64,000 nt of DNA, taken from the NCBI GenBank assembly GCA_029866325.1, contig JARWZO010000018.1, positions 62,001 to 126,000 on the forward strand, written 5' to 3'. This document shows positions 13,854-62,841 of this stretch, piece after piece; positions within the stretch are counted from its first letter, which is position 1; each line of letters begins with the position of its first letter. A program made the translations under genes and the position numbers. This DNA is from Fluviicola sp. GTDB taxonomy: Bacteria; Bacteroidota; Bacteroidia; Flavobacteriales_D; Crocinitomicaceae. The notes below the pieces were generated by a model. It made no database searches and was not told the DNA's origin. It saw nothing but the letters and a program-made list of their open reading frames with translations.

Positions 13854-14633
13854 TTAATCGGAAAACCAATATCCATGCAAAACAATTCCAAGTAGTGAAA
13901 GCGCGATGAGCCATTTTTCTTCTTCTAAAGTGGCTGAATAATGTAATTCGAATACGCGCGTATCGTTGTGTTGGTTTATACGCAAGGCGCTATCACGCAT
14001 GTTCATCAATTTCGGACATACATAAAACGTAGCAAGTGTCCTTCCGTATAATTCAAGTGTGTAGCGTTTGTCTCCGGTGTAAAAATCCACAAAATTATTG
14101 GAAGCCGATCCGGCGCTAACCGGATGTTTACACGAACCAATTTCCCTGCCTTCCGGAGAAAGTATTTTCCCGTTCGAAAGTAATTCGCCCAAGGGTTCGC
14201 GTTTAAAGTAAATGGAAATCTTGGCGGTTGAATACACAAAAAAATACTCAAAAGCTGTGGAACACACGGCTATGTTTCCATTCGGATGAAAACCATGTTC
14301 GGTGCGTTTGAAAATAACAACAGGACTTCCGTCTTTGGCAAATAGTTTTCCCGCCACACTATTGCCACCCATCGAGCGCGAGTTGGAATAGCTTCCCCAT
14401 GAACGCAAATCGGCCGATGTGTAATTGCTCCAAGAAACCAATTGATGCCGTTTGAGTTTTACCTCATCCATTAATCTGAATCTTTCGTTCGATGATGGAT
14501 AGGACGAAGGACCCACAGGAGTTTGATAGGTTGAATTGTTGCTGAATCCGCCTGCCAGCCAAACAATCATGACCACAAAACCGGCAAGGATCAGAATTGC
14601 AATAAAAAAGTAGAGGCCAAAAAAAGGAAACAT
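13854..14633 (-). CDS. Hypothetical single-pass membrane protein
   Basis: The 259-residue protein has a long N-terminal hydrophobic segment (residues about 4-28, ending ..IVWLAGG), a serine/proline-rich linker, and a beta-rich soluble domain with IYFKREPLGELLSNG and GREIGSCKHP. The domain is reminiscent of tubby/scramblase-like folds, but this is a weak impression. A second hydrophobic stretch lies at the C-terminus (WLIALSLLGIVLHGYWF). Function unknown. It lies 30 bases downstream of the OmpA lipoprotein gene and may be cotranscribed with it. Confidence 0.7.
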   Translation of the reverse strand: MFPFFGLYFFIAILILAGFVVMIVWLAGGFSNNSTYQTPVGPSSYPSSNERFRLMDEVKLKRHQLVSWSNYTSADLRSWGSYSNSRSMGGNSVAGKLFAKDGSPVVIFKRTEHGFHPNGNIAVCSTAFEYFFVYSTAKISIYFKREPLGELLSNGKILSPEGREIGSCKHPVSAGSASNNFVDFYTGDKRYTLELYGRTLATFYVCPKLMNMRDSALRINQHNDTRVFELHYSATLEEEKWLIALSLLGIVLHGYWFSD

Positions 14634-14663
14634 GGTGATGGATGGTTTATTGATCCGGGATGA

Positions 14664-15626
14664 TTATTGTCCTATCAGCTGAAATAATTCATTCAGATTT
14701 GGTGAAATAATAATCTCAATTCTACGATTCTTGGCTTTGTCTTTCGGATCAACCGGATGAAATTCACTTCGCCCTGCAGCCATCAATTGCGCCGGATTCA
14801 TTTTACTGTTGGCTGTCATGATTTCCACTACCGAAGTAGCACGCAAGACACTCAATTCCCAATTGCTTTTCGGATGCGAAGCGCTTGTTAGTTTATCGGT
14901 ATCGGTGTGACCTTCTACCACAATCTCCATATCTTTTTCGTTTTCCAGCACTTTCGCCAAATCAACCAACGCGCGTTTTCCTTCGGTTTCCACTACCGTA
15001 CTTCCCGATGCGAATAACAATTTCGCTTCCAGACTCACGTAAATTTTTCCGTTTTTCTCCACTACGGTCAATCCTTTGTTTTCAAATCCTTTCAAAGCGT
15101 TTGAAACTTTGGTTTTCAATTGTTTGATAGCGTCGTCTTTGCGTTGCATGGCTTCTTCCAACTCGTTCACACGCAATTCGCGTTCCTCCAATAAACGTTG
15201 TTTAGCTCCTAATTCCGATTCCAATGATTTCAGGGCATTTTCCTTGCGTTGTAATTCCAGGTTTTTGGCTTCCAGATCGGCTTGGTAACCCGCAGTTTCT
15301 TTCGCTCCGGATAAACGCAACTGATCTATTTTGCGTTCATTTGCTTCGTTGTCGGCTACCACCAAATCGTATTGCGCTTGCAAAAAACGGTAATTGGTTC
15401 CCAGTTGAAGCGTGTCTTTTTTGAGTTGTGACACATCTTTTTTAAGCTGTTCGTAGCGTGTTTCGAGTTCTTTAGCTTTGCCTTCATTGCTTAACGCGCT
15501 TGCCTTGTATCCTTCCAACTCCTGACTGCAAATGCGCTCGCGCTCTACCAATTCGTTGTATTTTTTAGCGGGAACACAGGCTGAAAGTGCCACAATGAGC
15601 ATTCCGATAGCGACGATTCTTTGCAT
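14664..15626 (-). CDS. OmpA-family lipoprotein with long coiled coil
   Basis: This 320-residue protein begins with a lipoprotein signal (lipobox LSAC, Cys17). Residues about 24-180 are a heptad-rich coiled coil full of Lys, Glu and Leu. The C-terminal OmpA domain (about 200-320) shows LLFASGSTVVETEG, the peptidoglycan-binding VEGHTDTDKL and RRIEIII. It should be anchored by lipid to the outer membrane and bind peptidoglycan. Similar proteins in Bacteroidota are called Pal-like or flagellar-motor-B-like, but no motor helix is present here. Confidence 0.92.
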   Translation of the reverse strand: MQRIVAIGMLIVALSACVPAKKYNELVERERICSQELEGYKASALSNEGKAKELETRYEQLKKDVSQLKKDTLQLGTNYRFLQAQYDLVVADNEANERKIDQLRLSGAKETAGYQADLEAKNLELQRKENALKSLESELGAKQRLLEERELRVNELEEAMQRKDDAIKQLKTKVSNALKGFENKGLTVVEKNGKIYVSLEAKLLFASGSTVVETEGKRALVDLAKVLENEKDMEIVVEGHTDTDKLTSASHPKSNWELSVLRATSVVEIMTANSKMNPAQLMAAGRSEFHPVDPKDKAKNRRIEIIISPNLNELFQLIGQ

Positions 15627-15733
15627 AATTCGTTGAATTTATATCCTCAAAATTGGTGAGAAATCAAGCGTTTCTGTCGTAAAAACCGGATACTTATAAA
15701 CAAATCACTTGTTGAAAGTGTCAGTTGGCGAGG

Positions 15734-16567
15734 TCAGGAGTTACGAATCCATTCAATGGTGGTTTTCAAGAAATCTTCCAATTCCGGATTTGTTCCCTCA
15801 AAAGGATGCTTGGTATTGAGTGTGTGAGAACCGTTTTTAATGAGGTGAAAGTGCGTTCGGTTATGATTTCTTTTGCTCCATTCGTAGAGTCGTTCACCAT
15901 GCCAAATCGGCACCGACTCGTCTGTATCGGCATGAGCAATCAATAAAGGAATTCGCAAAGAACGTACAATCGGCTCGGGGTTCCAGCTTCCCGTCCCACG
16001 ACTCGCAATGGTTTCTTGCAAATACTCTTCGCCCTGTGGCAAATCCTGTAATGTCCGGTTGTTGCGAATGAGCCACACGCGATCACGTTTCCACTTTTCC
16101 ATTACTTCCACCGAACGAACGTCGAGCGTACTCAAACAATTCAGTAAAACGGCTCCGTCCAGTTTAATTCCTTTTTCAGCAGCTTCCTTCGCGGCGAATA
16201 CAGTTGCAATTCCGCCCATGCTGTGCGCCAAAATGTTCACACTTGAATGATGCGGAAATGACGTTTCGACTTGTTCCAGTACAAACAACAAGTCTTCTTT
16301 TTCCAAGCGACGACAGTTTTTGCCATACTTATCCAACTCCTCAAAGAAGTCGTTTTCACCCACAATTCCCGAATGCGAATAATTGAACGCTACGGAAGAA
16401 ATTCCGTTCTCGACCAATGTTTGTTGAATATGCGGAAACATACCGTAGTTGTAAAAACCATTGTGTCCGTTGGCGATTACGACCAATGGCGTTTCTGATC
16501 CCGCATTGCGGTAAATCCCGTTAATTGGTCCGTTGGGGCTATTAAGTTGAAAAGGATGTCGATCCAT
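15734..16567 (-). CDS. Alpha/beta hydrolase (serine aminopeptidase-like)
   Basis: A 277-residue cytoplasmic alpha/beta-hydrolase without signal peptide. The nucleophile elbow is AHSMGG (about residue 117), the acid is probably the Asp in AHADTDESVP, and the base the His in NGSHTLN. The family is close to monoacylglycerol lipase/serine aminopeptidase-type hydrolases; the substrate is unknown. It is transcribed away from the photolyase operon, and the left 63-bp inverted element lies in the shared 361-base promoter gap. Confidence 0.85.
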   Translation of the reverse strand: MDRHPFQLNSPNGPINGIYRNAGSETPLVVIANGHNGFYNYGMFPHIQQTLVENGISSVAFNYSHSGIVGENDFFEELDKYGKNCRRLEKEDLLFVLEQVETSFPHHSSVNILAHSMGGIATVFAAKEAAEKGIKLDGAVLLNCLSTLDVRSVEVMEKWKRDRVWLIRNNRTLQDLPQGEEYLQETIASRGTGSWNPEPIVRSLRIPLLIAHADTDESVPIWHGERLYEWSKRNHNRTHFHLIKNGSHTLNTKHPFEGTNPELEDFLKTTIEWIRNS

Positions 16568-16641
16568 AGTTTATCTGTTATTTCAAAACTACACAACTTG
16601 GTGGAATAGTAGCGTTTTCTGTCATCTTCAGGTTGAGACAT

Positions 16642-16704
16642 CGTTCGTAATATTGCGAATTTACGTGCATTTATTTGATATGCCAATTTGCAATATTACG
16701 AACG
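16642..16704 (+). repeat. 63-bp inverted element, left copy
   Basis: The element has 15-bp perfect terminal inverted repeats (CGTTCGTAATATTGC ... GCAATATTACGAACG) and an AT-rich centre. A T-run follows on the plus strand. The right copy at 19608-19670 is its reverse complement with 2 differences in 63. The rest of the gap (16568-16928) has no gene I would defend; a TTGTTTAAAA at about 16856 is the only promoter-like string. Confidence 0.9.
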
Positions 16705-16928
16705 GTTTTTTCGGTTGATCATACCAATTTTCGCAAACATCCAACTCCCAAACCGCCTCTTTCCCAAAACCCAATCTTTCATTCGAACTCAACGCAAAGT
16801 CGCCTCTAAGAATCTTCTGCCAGATTTTTTTTCTGCGAACTATTCACTCTTCGAATTGTTTAAAAAGAACAACGAGATCGTTTTCTCGCAGGAGCAAAAG
16901 ATAAACCGTTGGAAACAAGATCGAAGTT

Positions 16929-18209
16929 ATGAAAACGGCAATAATGTGGTTTAAAACGGATCTTCGCTTGGCGGACAATGAAACGTTTGCGCAGGCAATT
17001 GCGTCCTCTGACCAGGTGATTCCCGTGTATGTATGGGATGAGCGTCTTTTTGAAAAAACACCTTACGGAACGCTGAAAACGGGAATATTCCGCAAACGTT
17101 TTTTGGTTGAATCATTAATTGATCTCGATAAAAGATTGCGGAGCAAAGGTTCCGGATTGATGTTGTTGAAAGGGAGTCCTGAGATCGAAATTCCCAAGTT
17201 GGCGCAAGCATACCATGTACAGAAAGTATTCGCCAAACGCGAAGTGGCCTTTGAAGAAAAACAAACTGCGCCCGCGGTAGAAAAGGCCCTGTGGAAAGTA
17301 GGGTGTGAGTTGGAGATATACAGCACGAGCACACTTTTCAGAGCAGATGATTTGCCGTTTTCAATCAAACAAATCCCAGAAGTATTTACCGCCTTTCGCA
17401 CGAAGGTTGAAAAAGACAGCTTTGTACGCGAATTGATTGCCGAACCTGAAGTTGTGGTTTCGCCGACAATTCCTAAAGTCAACTGGGAATTACCCGAAAT
17501 TATGCGCGATAATCGCGCTGTTTTGTTATTTGAGGGAGGCGAAACAGCAGCATTATCTCGGTTGAACGACTACCTGTTTGTGAGTAAATCAGTGGCTTCA
17601 TACAAACAAACACGTAATGAGTTGATTGGTCCTGATTACTCGTCGAAGTTTTCCGTTTGGCTGGCTCAGGGTTGTCTTTCTCCCAAAACAATTTACCATG
17701 AAGTAAGACGATTTGAAGAACTCCATGGGGCAAACGACTCAACTTATTGGCTCATTTTTGAATTGATCTGGCGCGACTTTTTCCGCTTTCTTTTCAAAAA
17801 GCACAATGAACGTTTCTTTTACCTGAAGGGAATCAAATCAGCTTATCCGAATCAGATCATTCACAATGAACAGTTGCTCGAAACCTGGAAGAAAGGAGAA
17901 ACAGGCAATGATTTCATTGATGCCAACATGAAGGAATTGAACGCAACAGGTTTTATGAGCAATCGCGGAAGACAACTTACCGCTAGTTATTTCTGTTATG
18001 AACTTCAACTTGATTGGCGATTGGGGGCAGCTTATTTTGAAGAACAACTCATTGATTACGATGTTTCTTCCAATTGGGGAAATTGGGCATACATTGCCGG
18101 AGTTGGGAATGACCCCAGGGGCGGGCGGGCATTAGACATCGAAAAACAAACACAGCAATACGATAAAAACGCAACGTACAGAAAATTATGGCTCGAAACA
18201 TCCAATTGA
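16929..18209 (+). CDS. Cryptochrome-DASH family photolyase
   Basis: This 426-residue flavoprotein belongs to the cryptochrome/photolyase family, DASH type. The N-terminal photolyase domain begins MKTAIMWFKTDLRLADN; the FAD-binding domain has ELIWRDFFRFL, the MKELNATGFMSNRGRQ motif, LQLDWRLGAAYFEEQLIDYDVSSNWGNW and the DASH-diagnostic AGVGNDPRGG (landmarks between about residues 275 and 400). DASH proteins bind FAD and MTHF and repair CPDs mainly in single-stranded DNA. The stop overlaps the flavin reductase start (TGATG). A class I photolyase is encoded separately at 61.5 kb. Confidence 0.95.
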   Translation: MKTAIMWFKTDLRLADNETFAQAIASSDQVIPVYVWDERLFEKTPYGTLKTGIFRKRFLVESLIDLDKRLRSKGSGLMLLKGSPEIEIPKLAQAYHVQKVFAKREVAFEEKQTAPAVEKALWKVGCELEIYSTSTLFRADDLPFSIKQIPEVFTAFRTKVEKDSFVRELIAEPEVVVSPTIPKVNWELPEIMRDNRAVLLFEGGETAALSRLNDYLFVSKSVASYKQTRNELIGPDYSSKFSVWLAQGCLSPKTIYHEVRRFEELHGANDSTYWLIFELIWRDFFRFLFKKHNERFFYLKGIKSAYPNQIIHNEQLLETWKKGETGNDFIDANMKELNATGFMSNRGRQLTASYFCYELQLDWRLGAAYFEEQLIDYDVSSNWGNWAYIAGVGNDPRGGRALDIEKQTQQYDKNATYRKLWLETSN

Positions 18210-18847
18210 TGAACTATAACTTGAGTGATCTTCAGCAAATGGAGAAACTCCAGCGCACTAACTTCGTGAATTCACTTACCGGTTTTAAAAGTGCCTGCTT
18301 GGTGGGTACAAAAAGTGCTTTAGGAAACACCAATCTGGCTATTTTTAGTTCCATTGTTCACCTCGGATCGCACCCACCATTGATTGGCATGTTCACACGT
18401 CCCGATTCGGTTGACCGGCATACGTTGGAAAATATTCTGGAAACCGGTTTATATACCTTGAATCATCTTACGCGTTCGATGACTGTGAAAGCCCATCAAA
18501 CATCTGCAAGGTACCCACGTGAAGTATCTGAATTTGAGGCGGTAGGACTTACACCAACTTATCTGGAAAACTTCCTTGCACCATTTGTAGAAGAATCCGT
18601 GATTTCAATCGGTTTAAAACTGGTCGAGACACAACGAATACTGGCCAATAATACCATTTTGGTGGTTGGAGAAGTGCAACATGTGCTTTTGCCCGAACAT
18701 TGTTTGGGTAGTGATGGGTTTATTGATCTCGAATTGGCGGGAACAATCACTTGTTCGGGTATCGATTCTTATCATGCTACTGAACAGCTCATGCGACTTT
18801 CTTACGCAAAACCCAATCTGGAGCCTCATCGCATCGATTTACATTGA
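18209..18847 (+). CDS. Flavin reductase family protein
   Basis: The start is the ATG at 18209 that shares TGATG with the photolyase stop, giving 212 residues. The product resembles the flavin reductase-like/split-barrel FMN-binding family: the N-terminal SLTGFKSACLVGT strand and NLAIFSSIVHLGSHPPLIG contact the flavin in relatives, and LYTLNHL follows. It probably reduces or holds flavin. Translational coupling to a DASH cryptochrome suggests it serves or protects the photolyase flavin, but that is inference. Confidence 0.87.
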   Translation: MNYNLSDLQQMEKLQRTNFVNSLTGFKSACLVGTKSALGNTNLAIFSSIVHLGSHPPLIGMFTRPDSVDRHTLENILETGLYTLNHLTRSMTVKAHQTSARYPREVSEFEAVGLTPTYLENFLAPFVEESVISIGLKLVETQRILANNTILVVGEVQHVLLPEHCLGSDGFIDLELAGTITCSGIDSYHATEQLMRLSYAKPNLEPHRIDLH

Positions 18848-18870
18848 TTATTAATTTCAACACTAGCAAA

Positions 18871-19560
18871 ATGGCACATTACTTATTGATTGGGGCTTCC
18901 GGCGGAATTGCACAGGCAACGGCAGCTATTCTCAAAGAACAAGGACATTCTATTACGACTTTAAGCCGAAGCGAAGCATTAACAGATTCCGCAGATCACC
19001 ATACGGTTGAAAGCTATAATCAGGAACATCTTCCGCAGTTGGAAATGGCAATCGACGGATTGGTTTATTTTCCGGGAACTATCAACTTAAAACCGTTTCA
19101 CCGGCTCAAACACGAAGAATTTCTACGCGATTATGAGATAAATGCTTTCGGAGCCGTTTCGGTGGTGCAGCAATACTTACCGAATCTGAAACGAGGTGAT
19201 AGTGCTTCCGTTGTTTTTATTTCAAGTGTTGCAGCTCGGGTAGGAATGCCTTTTCATGCCTCAGTGAGTATGGCCAAAGCTGCTTTAGAAGGATTGACGA
19301 TTGCTCTGGCGGCAGAATATGCGCCCGTTATCCGGTTTAATGCAGTTGCTCCATCTCTGACACAAACAAATCTGAGTGAGAAATTAACCAACTCTCCTGA
19401 AAAAATGGAGAACGCCATGAAACGAAATCCACTAAAAAAGGTTGGTTCGCCTGAGGAAGTGGCTTCTGCTATTTGTTTTTTATTAACCAAACAATCAAGT
19501 TGGATTACCGGACAGGTGATCGCCGTTGACGGTGGAATGCGGAATATCAAATTGTTGTAG
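18871..19560 (+). CDS. Short-chain dehydrogenase/reductase
   Basis: The start is the ATG at 18871 (MAHYLLIGASGGIAQATA), 23 bases after the flavin reductase. This 229-residue SDR has the cofactor loop GASGGIAQ, a catalytic Ser in VVFISSVAARVG, and the C-terminal ITGQVIAVDGG signature. At the YxxxK position the sequence reads SVSMAKAA, so the usual catalytic Tyr appears replaced by Ser with the Lys kept; activity may be altered. It is the last gene of the photolyase operon. Confidence 0.9.
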   Translation: MAHYLLIGASGGIAQATAAILKEQGHSITTLSRSEALTDSADHHTVESYNQEHLPQLEMAIDGLVYFPGTINLKPFHRLKHEEFLRDYEINAFGAVSVVQQYLPNLKRGDSASVVFISSVAARVGMPFHASVSMAKAALEGLTIALAAEYAPVIRFNAVAPSLTQTNLSEKLTNSPEKMENAMKRNPLKKVGSPEEVASAICFLLTKQSSWITGQVIAVDGGMRNIKLL

Positions 19561-19607
19561 GAAGGGGTCTTAGCGAAAGTTTTTGAGTTATTCGAAAGTA
19601 AAAAACC

Positions 19608-19670
19608 CGTTCGTAATATTGCAAATTGGCATATCAAATAAATGGGCGTAAATTCGCAATATTACGAACG
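19608..19670 (-). repeat. 63-bp inverted element, right copy
   Basis: Reverse complement of the element at 16642-16704 with only two mismatches. It lies between the convergent SDR and DUF2279 genes. Read on the minus strand it is a hairpin followed by GGTTTTTTAC, so it could also terminate the DUF2279 transcript. Together the two copies bracket exactly the three-gene photolyase operon. Confidence 0.9.
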
Positions 19671-19697
19671 ATGTTCTCGAATTAGATCGCTCGAAAA

Positions 19698-20567
19698 TCA
19701 CATCATTCCCACATAACAAACACCACCTCTCCAAAAAACGGACGGAAACGGAATTTTCAATGAATTGAGTGGCTTCACAAGTTTCTTTAACCACGGTCGT
19801 TTGATAGGCAATTGCGCCCAATCGATATCTAGTGAAAGGGCGTACTCGGATTGTGCGTGATAGGTAAATCCATTGATCATGTATGCATCTGCATCGCCTT
19901 TTAGCATTTTGTCTGCACTGTAACCAACTGCCAATTGGATCCATTTTGGAAAGCTCGTTTCTTTGAAAAACAATCCCGGAGATACAGCAAGCCAGTAGCT
20001 TTGTGCGTTGTAATCTTTGAGGAGTCGCTCAGACGCGGTGGAACCCAAAATAGTGGGACGCAAAGCGGCGTAAGGAGAATGTTTGTATCCGAATTTCAAT
20101 TGAAAACGTTGTTCGTTCCAAATCAATTGCTGCGCAACAAACAATCCCGATCCACCGGTGTTGGCGGTTACGTCTGCCCATGAAAAGCCCCATTCTTCAC
20201 TAAATCCGTCCAGTATTTCAACCGTCATAAGGTATCCCCAACCGATTCCACCGGCTAGCCAAGTTGCCGATTTGGGTTTCATTCCGGCCCAACGCCAGGC
20301 AGCGTATTCAACATTGGCCAATTGATAAGCTGTGTAACCATGCCCGAGTTTATCCATATACCGCCAGTTACTGGCATCATTGAACGTATGAAACGACGAT
20401 CTTGGATAATCTTTGTACCAGATTTCATTCAATAAAACGGTACTTCCACCCCACAATGCAGCGTTTGTTCCGCCCACTATCCACTTGCGTGCCGGATGCG
20501 TGGTATCATGTTGTGCCGTAACTTTCAACCCCAACAATAAAAATGAAATGATTACCCAACTTTTCAC
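19698..20567 (-). CDS. DUF2279 (YfiM-like) family protein
   Basis: A signal peptide (VKSWVIISFLLLGLKVTAQ) precedes a body that matches DUF2279/YfiM-like proteins: the signature DKLGHGYTAYQLANV, the YLMTVEILDGFSEEWGFSWADVTANTGGSG block (landmarks at about residues 75-140), and a C-terminal barrel-like tail. About 289 residues. The start is uncertain: no ATG is available, and GTG at 20567 or TTG at 20570 are the candidates. It probably lies in or near the outer membrane. Function unknown. Confidence 0.82.
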   Translation of the reverse strand: MKSWVIISFLLLGLKVTAQHDTTHPARKWIVGGTNAALWGGSTVLLNEIWYKDYPRSSFHTFNDASNWRYMDKLGHGYTAYQLANVEYAAWRWAGMKPKSATWLAGGIGWGYLMTVEILDGFSEEWGFSWADVTANTGGSGLFVAQQLIWNEQRFQLKFGYKHSPYAALRPTILGSTASERLLKDYNAQSYWLAVSPGLFFKETSFPKWIQLAVGYSADKMLKGDADAYMINGFTYHAQSEYALSLDIDWAQLPIKRPWLKKLVKPLNSLKIPFPSVFWRGGVCYVGMM

Positions 20568-20605
20568 CAAACGAATGTACGGAGAAATTTAAACAGGCTC
20601 TTAGT

Positions 20606-20645
20606 AAACAAAAAAACGAACGTAAGGCTCAAGTTACGTTCGTTT
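20606..20645 (-). terminator. Terminator of the 20.7 kb gene
   Basis: On the minus strand a perfect 12-bp stem (AAACGAACGTAA paired with TTACGTTCGTTT, 8-base loop) is followed by a run of seven T. It lies between the small TonB-C-like gene and DUF2279. Confidence 0.85.
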
Positions 20646-20728
20646 AACCAACTGTATGAAAAGTGTGCTTCGATCTGCTTCGTGTTGAACTGTTGGATAA
20701 CGTTCTTGCCGAAGCTTTAGGTAGTCGA

Positions 20729-21055
20729 TTATTGTACTTTCATCAAGAATTTATAACGGAAAGTTTTTCCAATAACATCTGTATTGGATATGTTTACTTT
20801 TAATGCTTTGATCTGATCAGCGATAGCCTTGTTGATTTCGTCACTTACCGAAGAAATAGAATCGATTTGAATTTCACCTGATTCCAACACGGTAAATTGT
20901 ACATAGACTTCCGCATCAATTTTCTTAGAAATATTCTCAGGATATTTGATTTTGGAGTTTACTTTTTTGCGGAAAATAGATTCACCGTTTCCTGCGAATG
21001 ATGTTGCTCCTATCAATAGGAAACTAACTGCTAAAATGATTGTTTGAAGTTTCAT
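20729..21055 (-). CDS. Small secreted TonB C-terminal-like protein
   Basis: The start is set at the ATG at 21055, which begins a clear signal peptide (MKLQTIILAVSFLLIGATSFAG). The 108-residue product has a short domain with YPENISKKIDAEVYVQFTVLESGEI, close in style to the C-terminal domain of Bacteroidota energy transducer TonB proteins (landmark about residues 38-62), but the membrane anchor and proline linker are missing. It likely acts free in the periplasm. Function unknown. Confidence 0.72.
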   Translation of the reverse strand: MKLQTIILAVSFLLIGATSFAGNGESIFRKKVNSKIKYPENISKKIDAEVYVQFTVLESGEIQIDSISSVSDEINKAIADQIKALKVNISNTDVIGKTFRYKFLMKVQ

Positions 21056-21285
21056 GATCTTTATTTTTTTGAGTTTAATTGCTTGTTTGAATGTATGACC
21101 AACTGCTCTCAAAAAAGTTACTCGGAAAATGAAAATAATTTTTAATTCATTAATTATCAATTAGTTAATTATGGACTATCAAGATGGTTTAGTTCTGATA
21201 TTAGTATTTCTAGTGGGGAATTATGGAGGAATTCAAAATTTGTTTGGTAAAGCGTTGCGATTAAAGGAGGCTCTTTTTGTTGGCA

Positions 21286-21441
21286 TTACATCTGTCGCGT
21301 AAGAGAACAAACGGAATGGAACGCAGTCTAACCCCTGTTTGAGCTCAGTCATCGGATTCTTTGTAAAAGAATCCGTTAATGACGTTTGCGAGTTGGGGTG
21401 CAGGCAGTGGAATGTAATGTAGTTCTCAAGCGGCGGATGTA
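21286..21441. repeat. Long imperfect palindrome (156 bp)
   Basis: Outer arms ACATCTGTCGCGTAAGAGAAC and GTTCTCAAGCGGCGGATGT pair, and the centre CGGATTCTTT-GTA-AAAGAATCCG is a perfect hairpin, with weaker pairing between. No gene is credible inside. A separate small hairpin (GTTCTTTTTT/AAAAAAGAAC, 21456-21481) lies between it and the stop of the PorP gene. Confidence 0.7.
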
Positions 21442-21496
21442 CAGCCTTGACTTTTTGGTTCTTTTTTGTCAAGAAAAAAGAACAGTGATATAAAAA

Positions 21497-22423
21497 TCAC
21501 TCAAACAGCGGACACAACTGCTGATCGGAACTCAAGGTCTTGCACGGCGAAAAACTAATCGTCAATTCATGTGAATGGAACGTTCCTGATCGCAATGGCG
21601 AAAGGATGAAGTCGTAAGAGTACATTATTCTCCAGCGCTCTTCGAAACGGAAACCCAGAAAACCGATCACGGCATCTGTATTACGAAAGCCTAAACCGGT
21701 TATCAATCTGCTTTTGTAATCGAACAGCGCCTGCAATTGCAAATCCATCGGAGCGGCTTTGGCAAAACCGATATAAGCAGCAGGCAACAAGGTCCATTCC
21801 TGATTCAGTGGCATGCGGTAGCCACCATTGATCATCGCATGCATCGAGAATTTAGCGTCTGAACCGATGTTTTGCCATTTCTGCGGAATCAATTGGTACA
21901 AACTCATTCCCGCATAATAGTTTTTACCGTTCCACCAAGCTCCGAAGGTAGCCGTCGGTTTTAATTCAACTGCACTTCCGTTAATGCGTGGATCGGCAAA
22001 CAAGGGTTTTGCTTTTTCAATGTCGAAAGCCAATTGTGTTGCTCCAAATGCCAAGCCAAGCGATAAACGATCTTCTTTTGTAAAGTTGAAATGGCCGGCG
22101 TAAGCTAGTTGCAGGCTGATTTGTTTGAATGCGCCCAATTGATCGTAATTCACAATCCCTCCCAACCCATGTCGACCACTGAGGTAACGTTTGCGTTTAG
22201 CTAAAAGCGGTGCTGAAATAGTTGCCCAACCCGAAATCGGTGCGCCTTCCATATTGATCCATTGTCCGCGTAAGGTGCTTTGCACTTCCAGACAGGTTTT
22301 AATTCCTGCATGTGCCGGATTGACGGCAAACTGATGGTTCGACCATTGGCTCATGTGCGGAATTTGCTGTGAGTAACAGCCGAAACCTGTAAAAACGGAT
22401 ATCAGGATCAGTAGCTGTTTCAT
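21497..22423 (-). CDS. PorP/SprF family type IX secretion membrane protein
   Basis: A 308-residue outer-membrane protein of the PorP/SprF family. It has a signal peptide (MKQLLILISVFTGFGCYSQ), then the family start QIPHMSQWSNHQFAVNPAHAG and the later LRGQWINMEGAP and GRHGLGGIVNYDQLG blocks (about residues 20-90). PorP/SprF proteins bind type B T9SS cargo at the cell surface. It starts inside the stop of the upstream type B cargo gene (overlap 22420-22423), the usual pairing of a type B protein with its own SprF-like partner. Confidence 0.93.
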   Translation of the reverse strand: MKQLLILISVFTGFGCYSQQIPHMSQWSNHQFAVNPAHAGIKTCLEVQSTLRGQWINMEGAPISGWATISAPLLAKRKRYLSGRHGLGGIVNYDQLGAFKQISLQLAYAGHFNFTKEDRLSLGLAFGATQLAFDIEKAKPLFADPRINGSAVELKPTATFGAWWNGKNYYAGMSLYQLIPQKWQNIGSDAKFSMHAMINGGYRMPLNQEWTLLPAAYIGFAKAAPMDLQLQALFDYKSRLITGLGFRNTDAVIGFLGFRFEERWRIMYSYDFILSPLRSGTFHSHELTISFSPCKTLSSDQQLCPLFE

Positions 22424-23709
22424 CGAATTACGGTTACAAATCCTTTAAATGGTTCTTTATAGGCGGGATCGCGCAGATCGATGATGTAATAAAACGTGCC
22501 ATCGGTTACTTTTCGACCGTTGTGAGTGGCGTCCCATGATTTCGAAGCACTGTATCCAACAACATCGAATATTTCTTGTCCCCAGCGGTCAAAAATGGTC
22601 ACTTTCGCATTCGGGTACAAATCAATTCCCTTGATGATCCAGGTGTCATTCACGCCATCGCCGTTGGGTGAAAAACTCCCCGGAATGGTGAACTGGTCGG
22701 TAATGGTAATTACTACTTCGTCAGAAACCGTACAATTGAGACTCGAGGCCGTGAGAAAATACGTAGTAGTGGTTTGAGGCAGGGCAATGGTTTGCAATGA
22801 AGTGGGTGAAGCAATCGTTGCTGCGGGTGTCCACAAATAGGTTACGCCATTGGTGGTTCCTGAAAGAACAACACTTTCACCCGAAGTAATACTTTGGTCA
22901 AGCCCGGCATCTACAAACAGATTTTCAACTGAGTATGGTCCTGCCTGTGCAATTAATGCCTGCGGACAATCCGTAAAACACGAACATTCCAATGTGACTA
23001 AATCGCCGTCTTGAATAGCACTTGTTTGCCAAAAAGAACCGGTGGTCGTGGCTGCCAATATTCCGTTGACATACCATTCAAAATCGGTTGTATCTGTGCA
23101 ATTACTCACATTCGCTAAAAAAGTTACCGGTTGGTTCGGACATAAATTCGTACTGGGTCCGGTAATGCTCATCCCCGCGGGGACGCGATCGATTCCGGTT
23201 CCGCTAGCAATGATATCGAACGTTGCTTCGGCTGGTAATGTTGCTCCACCATTTAAGGCGCCGTTTACCACCACATAATAGGTAGTCAATGGTAATAAAC
23301 CGGCGGCTACAAGGCTGAAATTTAAGCCTGCACCTATTTCGCAATTGCCGAGTGCCGTATAGGAAGAAGCATCGCAAGGTACAGTGGCTTCCAGGATGGT
23401 AGCTTGTAATAAATTCCCGCGGTTGGCTTGAACTACAAAGTTGAGATTCGAGAAATCAACCGATACCGTTCCACCTGTTGAGTTGGTCTGAAATGTAAAC
23501 CAACTGGTGTTATCGCCTGAAAAACAAAATGTAAAGTCATCTTCACAATCGGGGCAAACCGTTGAGGTAGCACTTTGGTTTGAAGCTGTAATAGATACCG
23601 AAGGACAAAGCGGAATTGCCTGATTGCAGCCATCGTTTGCCGGCTGTGACCAACCGAACATTCCTCCCAAAAGAGTCATTAACAAAAGATTAACACGCAT
23701 CATTTTCAT
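22420..23709 (-). CDS. T9SS type B sorting domain-containing surface protein
   Basis: The start is taken at the ATG at 23709, which gives a signal peptide (MKMMRVNLLLMTLLGGMFGWSQ); an upstream start at 23784 would add 25 charged residues. The 429-residue protein has an N-terminal CUB-like or PPC-like region beginning NDGCNQAIPLC, one or two Ig/PKD-like domains in the middle, and a C-terminal gliding-motility/type B sorting domain: PGSFSPNGDGVNDTWIIKG, IFDRWGQEIF and the end TDGTFYYIIDL. It should be exported by T9SS and held by the adjacent PorP/SprF protein. Confidence 0.9.
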   Translation of the reverse strand: MKMMRVNLLLMTLLGGMFGWSQPANDGCNQAIPLCPSVSITASNQSATSTVCPDCEDDFTFCFSGDNTSWFTFQTNSTGGTVSVDFSNLNFVVQANRGNLLQATILEATVPCDASSYTALGNCEIGAGLNFSLVAAGLLPLTTYYVVVNGALNGGATLPAEATFDIIASGTGIDRVPAGMSITGPSTNLCPNQPVTFLANVSNCTDTTDFEWYVNGILAATTTGSFWQTSAIQDGDLVTLECSCFTDCPQALIAQAGPYSVENLFVDAGLDQSITSGESVVLSGTTNGVTYLWTPAATIASPTSLQTIALPQTTTTYFLTASSLNCTVSDEVVITITDQFTIPGSFSPNGDGVNDTWIIKGIDLYPNAKVTIFDRWGQEIFDVVGYSASKSWDATHNGRKVTDGTFYYIIDLRDPAYKEPFKGFVTVIR

Positions 23710-49045: not shown

Positions 49046-49196
49046 TATTCAGTAACTAGTGATTAATGGTTAGTTATTAGAAGGTAGTTGTTAGTTCAGT
49101 GGTTAGTTATTAGTTGCTAGTTATTAGTGATTGGTTATTAGAGATTAGTTGGGATATCTCATACTAACCACTAATAACCAATCACTAGCCACTATT
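49046..49196. repeat. TAGTTATTAGT word repeat with inverted ends
   Basis: The left part (CAGTAACTAGTGATTAATGG) is mirrored on the right (AACCAATCACTAGCCACTA). Between are tandem variants of TAGTTATTAG and TAGTTGTTAG. It lies between divergent ftsX and the YceI gene; no gene inside. Confidence 0.7.
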
Positions 49197-49976: not shown

Positions 49977-50134
49977 GTCCTCCCCCTCAATCCCCCTCCA
50001 AAGGGGGAAGCAGATTTACCCTAAAGAGAAAAAGTTGTTATCTGCTGATTTTCAACATCTTGCTATTTGAAAGAACAATCTAATTTCTACTGAGTCTCTA
50101 TCTCCCCCTTTGGAGGGGGAATAAGGGGGAGGAC
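49977..50134. repeat. GTCCTCCCCCT inverted-repeat element (158 bp)
   Basis: Left end GTCCTCCCCCTCAATCCCCC and right end GGGGGAATAAGGGGGAGGAC form 33-bp inverted arms with about four mismatches; each arm also contains CCCTCCAAAGGGG, itself a dyad. The middle 90 bp is AT-rich. No gene inside. The 130 bp between this and lysC holds only a weak TAATTTCG promoter-like string. Confidence 0.85.
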
Positions 50135-51601: not shown

Positions 51602-51657
51602 CGAATTCGATAATTTGAGTGTTCGCAATATTGCGAACACTCAAATTATCGAATTCG
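51602..51657. repeat. Perfect 56-bp palindrome
   Basis: Every base of 51602-51657 pairs with its mirror; the left arm runs CGAATTCGATAATTTGAGTG then TTCGCAAT to the centre. There is no loop and no T-run after it. It lies 58 bases after lysC and 90 before the HTH gene start. Its centre TTCGCAATATTGCGAA equals, with one change, the core of the 63-bp elements around the photolyase operon. Confidence 0.95.
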
Positions 51658-61530: not shown

Positions 61531-62841
61531 TTATTTCGACAATCCCATTTTGTAACGGGCTAATACTCGTTCACGGGCGAATGTATGATCCACAATCGGT
61601 TTCGGATAGATTTCCGTTCCAAATTCGGGAACCCATTTGCGGATGTACATGAATTGAGGATCGAATTTTTCTTGTTGCAACGTCGGATTAAACACGCGGA
61701 AATAAGGCGCTGCATCGCACCCCGAACTTGCCGCCCATTGCCAACCTCCCACATTACTTGCCAATTCAAAATCAAGGAGTTTTTCGGCAAAGTACCGTTC
61801 ACCCAACCGCCAATCGAGCAGCAGGTGTTTGGTAAAAAAACTGGCTACAACCATGCGAACGCGGTTATGCATGTGACCTGTGGCATTCAATTCCCGCATC
61901 CCGGCGTCTACCAGCGGATAACCGGTTTTTCCTTCGCACCATAATCTGAAATGCTCTTCGTTGTGTTCCCATTCAATGCGGTCATATTCCGGTTTAAACG
62001 ATTTTATGACCGATTGCGGGAAGTGAAAAATGATCATTTGGTAGAAATCGCGCCAAATCAACTCATTGAGAAATTTTTCTCCGTTAGCTTGTGCCAATCG
62101 CGTCAGTTCACGAATAGAAATGGTTCCGAAACGCAGGTGTAAACTCAAACGGGAAGTACCATTTACCGAAGGAATGTCACGCGTTTCATGGTAACTACGA
62201 ATGATTTCGATAGCAGGAGAACGATCTGGAAATTCGACCGTTTGTAAATCGGAAAAGCCCAAGTCATGAAGAGAAATTACATCAAGAGGAACGGATCCTT
62301 TTCGTAGGTTGTCGGTATATGCTTCTACGGGATAACTCTTCGTGTAAAATGCCGTTAGTTGGTCTTTCCAGCGGCGCATATAAGGCGTAAAAATTGTATA
62401 TGGTTTCCCGTCGGGTTTTACCACTTCTCCTTTTTCGAAAATCACATGATCTTTGGCACCGATGAATGCTACTGATTGTTGCTGGAGCACTTCTGCCAAT
62501 TGTTTGTCGCGCTCAAGTGCATACGGTTCGTAATCGCGGTTAGTAAAAACTACTTGTGCATTGAGACGTTGAACCAATTCAGGAATCTTGTCAATCGGAT
62601 TTCCTGCCACCACGATGAGATCGCTTCCCAACTCTTGATACTGCCTTTTAAGCGCTTTTACCTCACGGTGAATAAACAGCACGCGTTGATCATTTGAGGG
62701 TAATTGCTCCAGAATAACGGTGTCAAAAATAAAAACGGGCTGAACCGAATGTCCGTCTTTCAGTGCTTTAAAGAGTCCGGCATTGTCGGCAATGCGCAGA
62801 TCTCGTCTGTGCCAGAAGAGCGTTGTTGTTTTCGGTTCCAT
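61531..62841 (-). CDS. phr: Deoxyribodipyrimidine photolyase (class I CPD type)
   Basis: The start is the ATG at 62841 (MEPKTTTLFWHRRDLRIADN), giving 436 residues. It is a light-driven CPD-repair enzyme of the class I group: the MTHF/antenna N-terminal domain (about 1-130), then the FAD domain with NELIWRDFYQMIIFHFP, MRELNATGHMHNRVRMVVASFFTKHLLLDWRLGERYFAEKLLDFELASNVGGWQWAASSGCDAAPYFR as landmarks at about 265-355. It is separate from the CRY-DASH gene at 16.9 kb. Confidence 0.96.
   Translation of the reverse strand: MEPKTTTLFWHRRDLRIADNAGLFKALKDGHSVQPVFIFDTVILEQLPSNDQRVLFIHREVKALKRQYQELGSDLIVVAGNPIDKIPELVQRLNAQVVFTNRDYEPYALERDKQLAEVLQQQSVAFIGAKDHVIFEKGEVVKPDGKPYTIFTPYMRRWKDQLTAFYTKSYPVEAYTDNLRKGSVPLDVISLHDLGFSDLQTVEFPDRSPAIEIIRSYHETRDIPSVNGTSRLSLHLRFGTISIRELTRLAQANGEKFLNELIWRDFYQMIIFHFPQSVIKSFKPEYDRIEWEHNEEHFRLWCEGKTGYPLVDAGMRELNATGHMHNRVRMVVASFFTKHLLLDWRLGERYFAEKLLDFELASNVGGWQWAASSGCDAAPYFRVFNPTLQQEKFDPQFMYIRKWVPEFGTEIYPKPIVDHTFARERVLARYKMGLSK

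Follow-up and report, generated by a model that had tools for sequence, protein, structure and literature searches.

An inverted hairpin pair around a Fluviicola photolyase operon belongs to a dispersed, lineage-specific repeat family found near gene 3' ends

The stretch of DNA considered here (the window: 64,000 nucleotides of Fluviicola sp., assembly GCA_029866325.1, contig JARWZO010000018.1, positions 62,001 to 126,000) holds an operon of three genes, for a CRY-DASH photolyase, a flavin reductase-like protein, and a short-chain dehydrogenase/reductase (SDR), with one copy of a 63-bp palindromic element on either side in inverted orientation. This arrangement raises the question of whether the operon and its bracketing elements constitute a composite cassette moved as a unit or two copies of a mobile mini-element inserted on both sides, as an initial annotation of the sequence had proposed, or whether the elements have a wider distribution of their own. 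Comparison with the remainder of the same genome (G000; 4,679,305 bases in 32 contigs), with a sister species (G011), and with further genomes of the genus and family indicates that the hairpin is not a feature of the photolyase operon. The two elements are probably ordinary members of a dispersed, lineage-specific family of hairpins at gene 3' ends, the arrival of the operon being a separate event.

The left element (L; 16642–16704, plus strand) is an orphan copy between divergent genes, 74 nt from the start of a hydrolase gene and 224 nt from the photolyase start at 16929. The right element (R; 19608–19670, minus strand) lies where members of the family usually do: its neighbours are convergent, the SDR gene ending 47 nt and a DUF2279 gene 27 nt away from it. 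Alignment bears out the initial description of the pair: element positions 25 and 26 are the sole differences between the 63-mers, both have a perfect 15-bp terminal inverted repeat, and all three genes of the operon lie wholly between them. The similarity continues past the elements as described, giving inverted arms of 74 nt (16638–16711 and 19601–19674) that are 96% complementary, and in each copy a T-run follows the stem at the same end of the element. Each element is predicted to fold into a hairpin on both strands, with z scores of −6.75, −5.01, −3.87, and −7.31 for the four strands, and 0, 1, 2, and 0 of 200 shuffled sequences, respectively, fold as well. A target duplication of 2 bp or more is absent at L and at R taken singly, these window copies being the ones checked, and direct sharing at the ends of the element-to-element block is limited to 2 bp ('AT').

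A BLAST search of the G000 genome with the 74-nt arm gives 97 matches, both strands counted. A covariance model at an E-value of 0.001 matches G000 91 times and G011 66 times, and has no match in the remaining 12 genomes of the genus. The listed matches were reduced by hand to 46 unique places for G000 and 36 for G011, copy counts that are lower bounds because the covariance search scored 150 of ∼4,000 candidates per genome and the listed matches are a subset. Of 150 family genomes, only these two contain the exact two-arm core pattern, G000 at 38 places and G011 at 31; the other 148 lack it, and the reversed pattern used as a control has no places. Partial matches of 23–33 nt appear once each in congeners G001, G004, and G006 in a search of 40 genomes. 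A 24-base pattern of the class to which L and R belong (class A, below) has no places in named-genome and viral contig collections, from which near records may have been excluded. Dozens of scattered copies without a tie to the operon, which the initial annotation had named as the observation contrary to its own proposal, are therefore present in this genome. Judged by title, the papers listed in literature searches include no report of such a repeat for this genus and nothing relevant on photolyase together with inversion. Some copies form direct pairs 158–194 bp apart with no called gene between them (G000 C6:356204/356381, C28:13474/13638, C28:40322/40480, and C11:174738/174932); at C6:356204/356381 the similarity extends to the flanks, as a tandem duplication would produce. 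Two pairs ∼505 bp apart (G000 C4:19875/20380 and C5:128649/129155) occupy the same site in G011 with nearly the same spacing.

Nearly all copies follow genes, 79 of 82 lying between tandem or convergent ones. Among the 82 listed copies of the two genomes, 33 lie between convergent, 46 between tandem, and 3 between divergent genes, compared with 6, 17, and 8, respectively, of the window intergenic gaps of at least 80 nt; the gene calls underlying these contexts come from a codon-score script and not from a standard gene finder. On median, a copy lies 39.5 nt from the closest gene 3' end, with 53 of 82 copies within 60 nt and 68 within 150 nt. At least four T residues occur within 10 nt past the stem in 58 of 82 copies, and at least four A residues within 10 nt ahead of the stem in 57. 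This pattern of positions fits a strand-symmetric hairpin at gene 3' ends.

Two classes of element can be distinguished by their loops. Class A, which includes both window copies, accounts for 30 of the 46 listed copies in G000 and 15 of 35 in G011, and its loop holds a nearly fixed asymmetric stretch. Class B (16 listed copies in G000 and 20 in G011) is a near-perfect inverted repeat with a variable centre. One odd G011 match (C1:4169581) was excluded before the alignment and the class counts, leaving 81 of the 82 copies. Over these 81 copies 93.6% of stem cells are paired, compared with 31–41% in slid controls, and doubly changed stem cells number 87 versus 42.0 in shuffles. Since descent or spread links the copies with one another, these data indicate that the hairpin is kept and do not give the number of independent changes. 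Nine of the 20 stem pairs are invariant across the 81 copies, indicating that the sequence of the arms is itself maintained or homogenised.

Nothing singles L and R out as a pair. The distance between them is 2, and L is at the same distance from three scattered copies (L003, L004, and L008). Across the 406 pairs among 29 of the 30 class A copies of G000, those that were aligned, the median distance is 7, and seven pairs are at 2 or less, so that some other pairs are at least as close as L and R. If 46 places were drawn at random, 0.66 inverted neighbour pairs would be expected within 2,966 bp; two are seen (P(≥2) = 0.13), an estimate that is rough since the copies are clustered; an inverted pair at this closeness is compatible with chance. 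Among the listed copies just one more inverted pair lies within 3 kb (C30:64846/65950); it is of class B and brackets one called gene. No further inverted class A pair lies within 20 kb among the 46 listed G000 copies.

The operon, in turn, is an insertion at the junction of the DUF2279 and hydrolase genes. Searches located the former in all 14 genus genomes and the latter in 11, and both in 10 congeners besides G000. In seven of these 10 (G011, G005, G001, G009, G003, G013, and G002) the two flanks are adjacent, with match ends 33–140 bp apart. In the other three (G012, G007, and G008) they are ∼1.33 kb apart with a gene of ∼414 amino acids between them (L079, L081, and L082), indicating that this junction has gained or lost another gene too. 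The operon is at the junction in none of the 10, and the DNA between the elements is accordingly extra DNA; conservation of the operon here in relatives lacking the elements, the second observation named initially as contrary to a cassette, is not what these genomes contain. Two of 13 congeners, G010 and G005, have a CRY-DASH gene belonging to the same group, 59% identical and in other surroundings, and the remaining photolyase-type matches in the 13 are 28–38% identical. Homology to G011 ends 88 nt outside L and 23 nt outside R, and the G011 spacer between the DUF2279 and hydrolase genes does not align to G000 and contains another palindrome; the bracketed block is thus nearly the extra DNA, whose exact ends cannot be set. 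The alternative G011 palindrome is of the AATGTTGAATG type and was seen at L143/L078, which is this spacer, and at L245, places where G000 carries the operon block or the 63-bp element.

Comparison of the two species also indicates how element sites change. Twenty-five of the 46 listed G000 places map on both sides to G011 stretches, 23 with a listed G011 element and two without, a count that is biased toward shared sites and is no measure of the frequency of empty sites, since most G011 stretches were fetched around that genome's own copies. In 22 site pairs that were compared, the class is the same in 14 (eight of class A in the same orientation and six of class B) and different in six, and in the remaining two, both of class A, the loop is flipped. 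Among the 35 G011 copies, the same-site partner ranks first in closeness in only five of the 22 cases, its median rank being 7. Arms at the same site (12 + 12 nt) agree on average at 89% of positions, and the 50-nt flanks at 54%, compared with 36% for 40 random flank pairs treated with the same aligner. The element is absent from the G011 spacers matching G000 C17:182658, C2:102590, C6:282865, and C12:354083; in the case of C12:354083, and likewise of the photolyase site, a different palindrome is present in G011. The loop differences at shared sites together with the sites lacking an element indicate that sites turn over and that loops are replaced or flipped in place. Such turnover may proceed by copying between sites or by repeated re-insertion.

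Taken together, these results suggest the following account. Lying just downstream of genes, the hairpins would most likely act on both strands as terminators and protect transcript ends, and the family may spread or become homogenised between sites in the manner of repetitive extragenic palindromic (REP) elements and the hairpins that pairs of them form (REPINs). The photolyase operon would have entered the junction of the DUF2279 and hydrolase genes in the G000 lineage, by acquisition or by relocation. R would then be the ordinary 3' element that the SDR and DUF2279 genes have where they converge, and L an orphan resulting from rearrangement: it may have belonged to the 3' end of a neighbour that was lost or came along, or, had the operon later flipped, to that of the SDR gene. 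A precedent for such an orphan is the copy at C12:104628, which lies between divergent genes in G000 and whose G011 counterpart lies 32 nt past a called gene in a stretch missing from G000. A repeat dispersed over gene 3' ends, with an operon inserted next to it, accounts for most of the bracketing. The initial alternative of two mini-element copies on both sides was right in kind, in that the element is a dispersed palindromic repeat, although its mobility is inferred.

Several observations weigh against this account. The bracketed block is approximately the DNA that is extra relative to G011, a fit that is neater than coincidence requires. L breaks the 3'-end rule, as one of three exceptions among the 82 listed copies, and a consensus terminator scan listed neither L nor R, probably because it limited loops to 8 nt or fewer. 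Element orientation, which is ill-defined in class B, agrees with gene direction at 12 of 22 tandem G000 sites and opposes it at 10. Neither the stem pairs changed on both sides (6 versus 4.9 in shuffles, a value reached by 98 of 500) nor the further pair types (16 versus 14.8, reached by 163 of 500) exceed the shuffled controls, and the two outermost stem pairs fail in 28 and 30 of the 81 copies. The four G000 sites whose G011 spacers lack the element show no clean insertion footprint when viewed in G011. Finally, the copies are clustered, with eight neighbour pairs within 2,966 bp in any orientation compared with 1.32 expected, six of the eight being direct pairs 158–506 bp apart.

One rival explanation is an inversion. 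The operon may have been inserted first on the minus strand between two 3' hairpins, with recombination between them later flipping segment 16705–19607, which may still be invertible; L would then be the former 3' element of the SDR gene. With the segment flipped back, both elements obey the 3'-end rule, L lying 47 nt past the SDR gene and R 27 nt past the DUF2279 gene, and the arms are inverted, 74 nt long, and 96% alike. The flipped class A loops at two of 22 sites shared by the species point the same way, although replacement by another copy would look alike. However, the second orientation was not seen in the one assembly, which comes without reads, and arms of 63–74 bp are short for general recombination, so that we regard an inversion as unlikely. 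An extension of this idea, in which a young hairpin family born in this lineage and lacking a REP-associated tyrosine transposase (RAYT) has frozen arms and loops swapped or flipped at shared sites, its inverted pairs render the enclosed DNA invertible, and the photolyase operon has been flipped or is still flipping, is more doubtful still. Under that extension the frozen arm sequence would imply that something recognises the arm.

The composite cassette, two mini-elements and the operon mobilised jointly by a transposase acting on the outer ends, is in keeping with the inverted flanking copies and their terminal repeats and with the absence of the bracketed DNA from the junction in all 10 congeners having both flanks. 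Such a transposition is nevertheless highly improbable: sharing at the block ends does not exceed 2 bp, single elements lack a duplication of even that length, and L is as near to three scattered copies as to R. The three enzyme genes are the only genes between the copies, with no transposase among them, and searches of the own genome showed no second place with the operon's photolyase gene. Moreover, the other close inverted pair encloses a single gene, and the Y1 transposase genes of G000 and G011 are not beside the repeat. The proposal that the cassette moved as a unit thus finds no support. It is also very unlikely that the two hairpins form an insulator pair kept by selection as a barrier to transcription reading into the operon from either side. 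In both copies the T-run does face the operon, as in terminators of incoming transcription, but the left neighbour is divergent, so that no transcript is known to enter there, and at tandem G000 sites the elements point along the gene (12) nearly as often as against it (10).

A dispersed family of 3'-end hairpins, the account preferred here, resembles several known kinds of sequence without coinciding with any of them. Bidirectional intrinsic terminators are hairpins at gene 3' ends, and plain ones need not share sequence. Most copies resemble them in being 3'-end hairpins with A-rich sequence before and T-rich sequence after the stem, the T-runs and the proximity to 3' ends described above being what a terminator requires on sequence, with L excepted. 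Unlike plain terminators, the copies form one sequence family with nearly frozen arms. As described by Bertels and Rainey (2011; PMC3116915), REPINs and REP doublets are likewise short, dispersed, extragenic inverted doublets that make hairpins, with conserved ends, a more variable spacer, and compensatory stem changes. The present family shares the dispersal of an extragenic palindrome between called genes and the inverted units forming one hairpin, with compensatory changes to the extent given by the stem counts. It differs from REPINs in its A+T-rich arms, its strong bias toward gene 3' ends, and its occurrence at sites common to two species with loops exchanged or flipped. GTAG- and CGTC-tagged REP superfamilies (PMC3733652) also lie between unidirectional or convergent genes, mostly downstream of coding regions, with dimers oppositely oriented; in contrast, the consensus of the present family lacks GTAG, and by inspection CGTC occurs in some copies only, inside the stem or loop. 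Y1 transposases are found in 11 of 14 genus genomes. Around the six Y1 matches examined (three in G000, one of them at a contig edge, and three in G011), the element was not found within 6–8 kb apart from one mismatched 11-mer, and a link to RAYT was rejected. With both the tag and the RAYT link failing in these comparisons, the family is classed as a REPIN-like palindromic repeat and not as a REPIN.

Bacterial miniature inverted-repeat transposable elements (MITEs), such as those of Porphyromonas gingivalis (PMC4596501), are similarly small, non-coding, and dispersed with terminal inverted repeats, and both window copies have such repeats. Unlike MITEs, the window copies lack a target duplication, and no clean empty site was seen where sites were compared. 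For want of target duplications, L and R give no support to a MITE. When G000 was searched at the DNA level, matches were of element size only, with no parent transposon; transposases beside the copies were not searched for. Integron attC sites, suggested by the size and the imperfect palindrome, carry a characteristic core site; this was not seen and the candidate was set aside. An operator for a regulator of the operon (palindrome TTCGYAATATTRCGAA) was likewise set aside, as copies follow genes genome-wide. Rfam models run over 14000–23000 gave two matches below the gathering threshold to a Drosophila RNA, which are taken as chance.

On this account the attractive idea of a mobile photolyase cassette is replaced by that of an operon inserted among the members of a genome-wide family of 3'-end hairpins. 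The exact core pattern being confined to two of 150 family genomes, the family offers a compact case for studying the origin and homogenisation of intergenic palindromes. If the inversion were true, such repeats would also reorient inserted operons.

The genes of the operon are all on the plus strand. The first (16929–18209) encodes a protein of the photolyase family whose match to TIGR02765 (NCBIfam; 508.7 bits against a cut-off of 317.05) places it in the CRY-DASH subfamily. It is followed by the flavin reductase-like gene (18188–18847; PF01613) and the SDR gene (18871–19560; PF13561/PF00106), which could also start from a TTG at 18844. Both partner genes have relatives in the fetched flanks of 16 of the best 80 related Bacteroidota loci, many of which are short, indicating that the gene set is a recurring association of varying order. 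The suggestion that the three enzymes serve one light-dependent function is plausible in view of this recurrence and of the CRY-DASH score. The base composition of the operon (fraction of G + C 0.432, compared with 0.428 for the window) gives no foreign mark. The flanking genes are both on the minus strand, an alpha/beta hydrolase-like gene on the left (15734–16567; PF12146, 33.5 bits) and a DUF2279 predicted lipoprotein gene on the right (19698–20570; PF10043). The own genome contains no second copy of the operon's photolyase gene; its other match, a second photolyase/cryptochrome relative, lies at 61630–62199 of the window (G000 C32:123630–124199) and is 37% identical.

Two further sets of palindromic sequence were seen in the window. 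A perfect 56-bp palindrome with 28-nt arms and no spacer lies at 51602–51657 and is similar at its centre to the arm of the 63-bp element. Two inverted repeats of unrelated sequence, at 49977–50134 and 49118–49194, have 32-nt arms that are 94% and 84% complementary, respectively.

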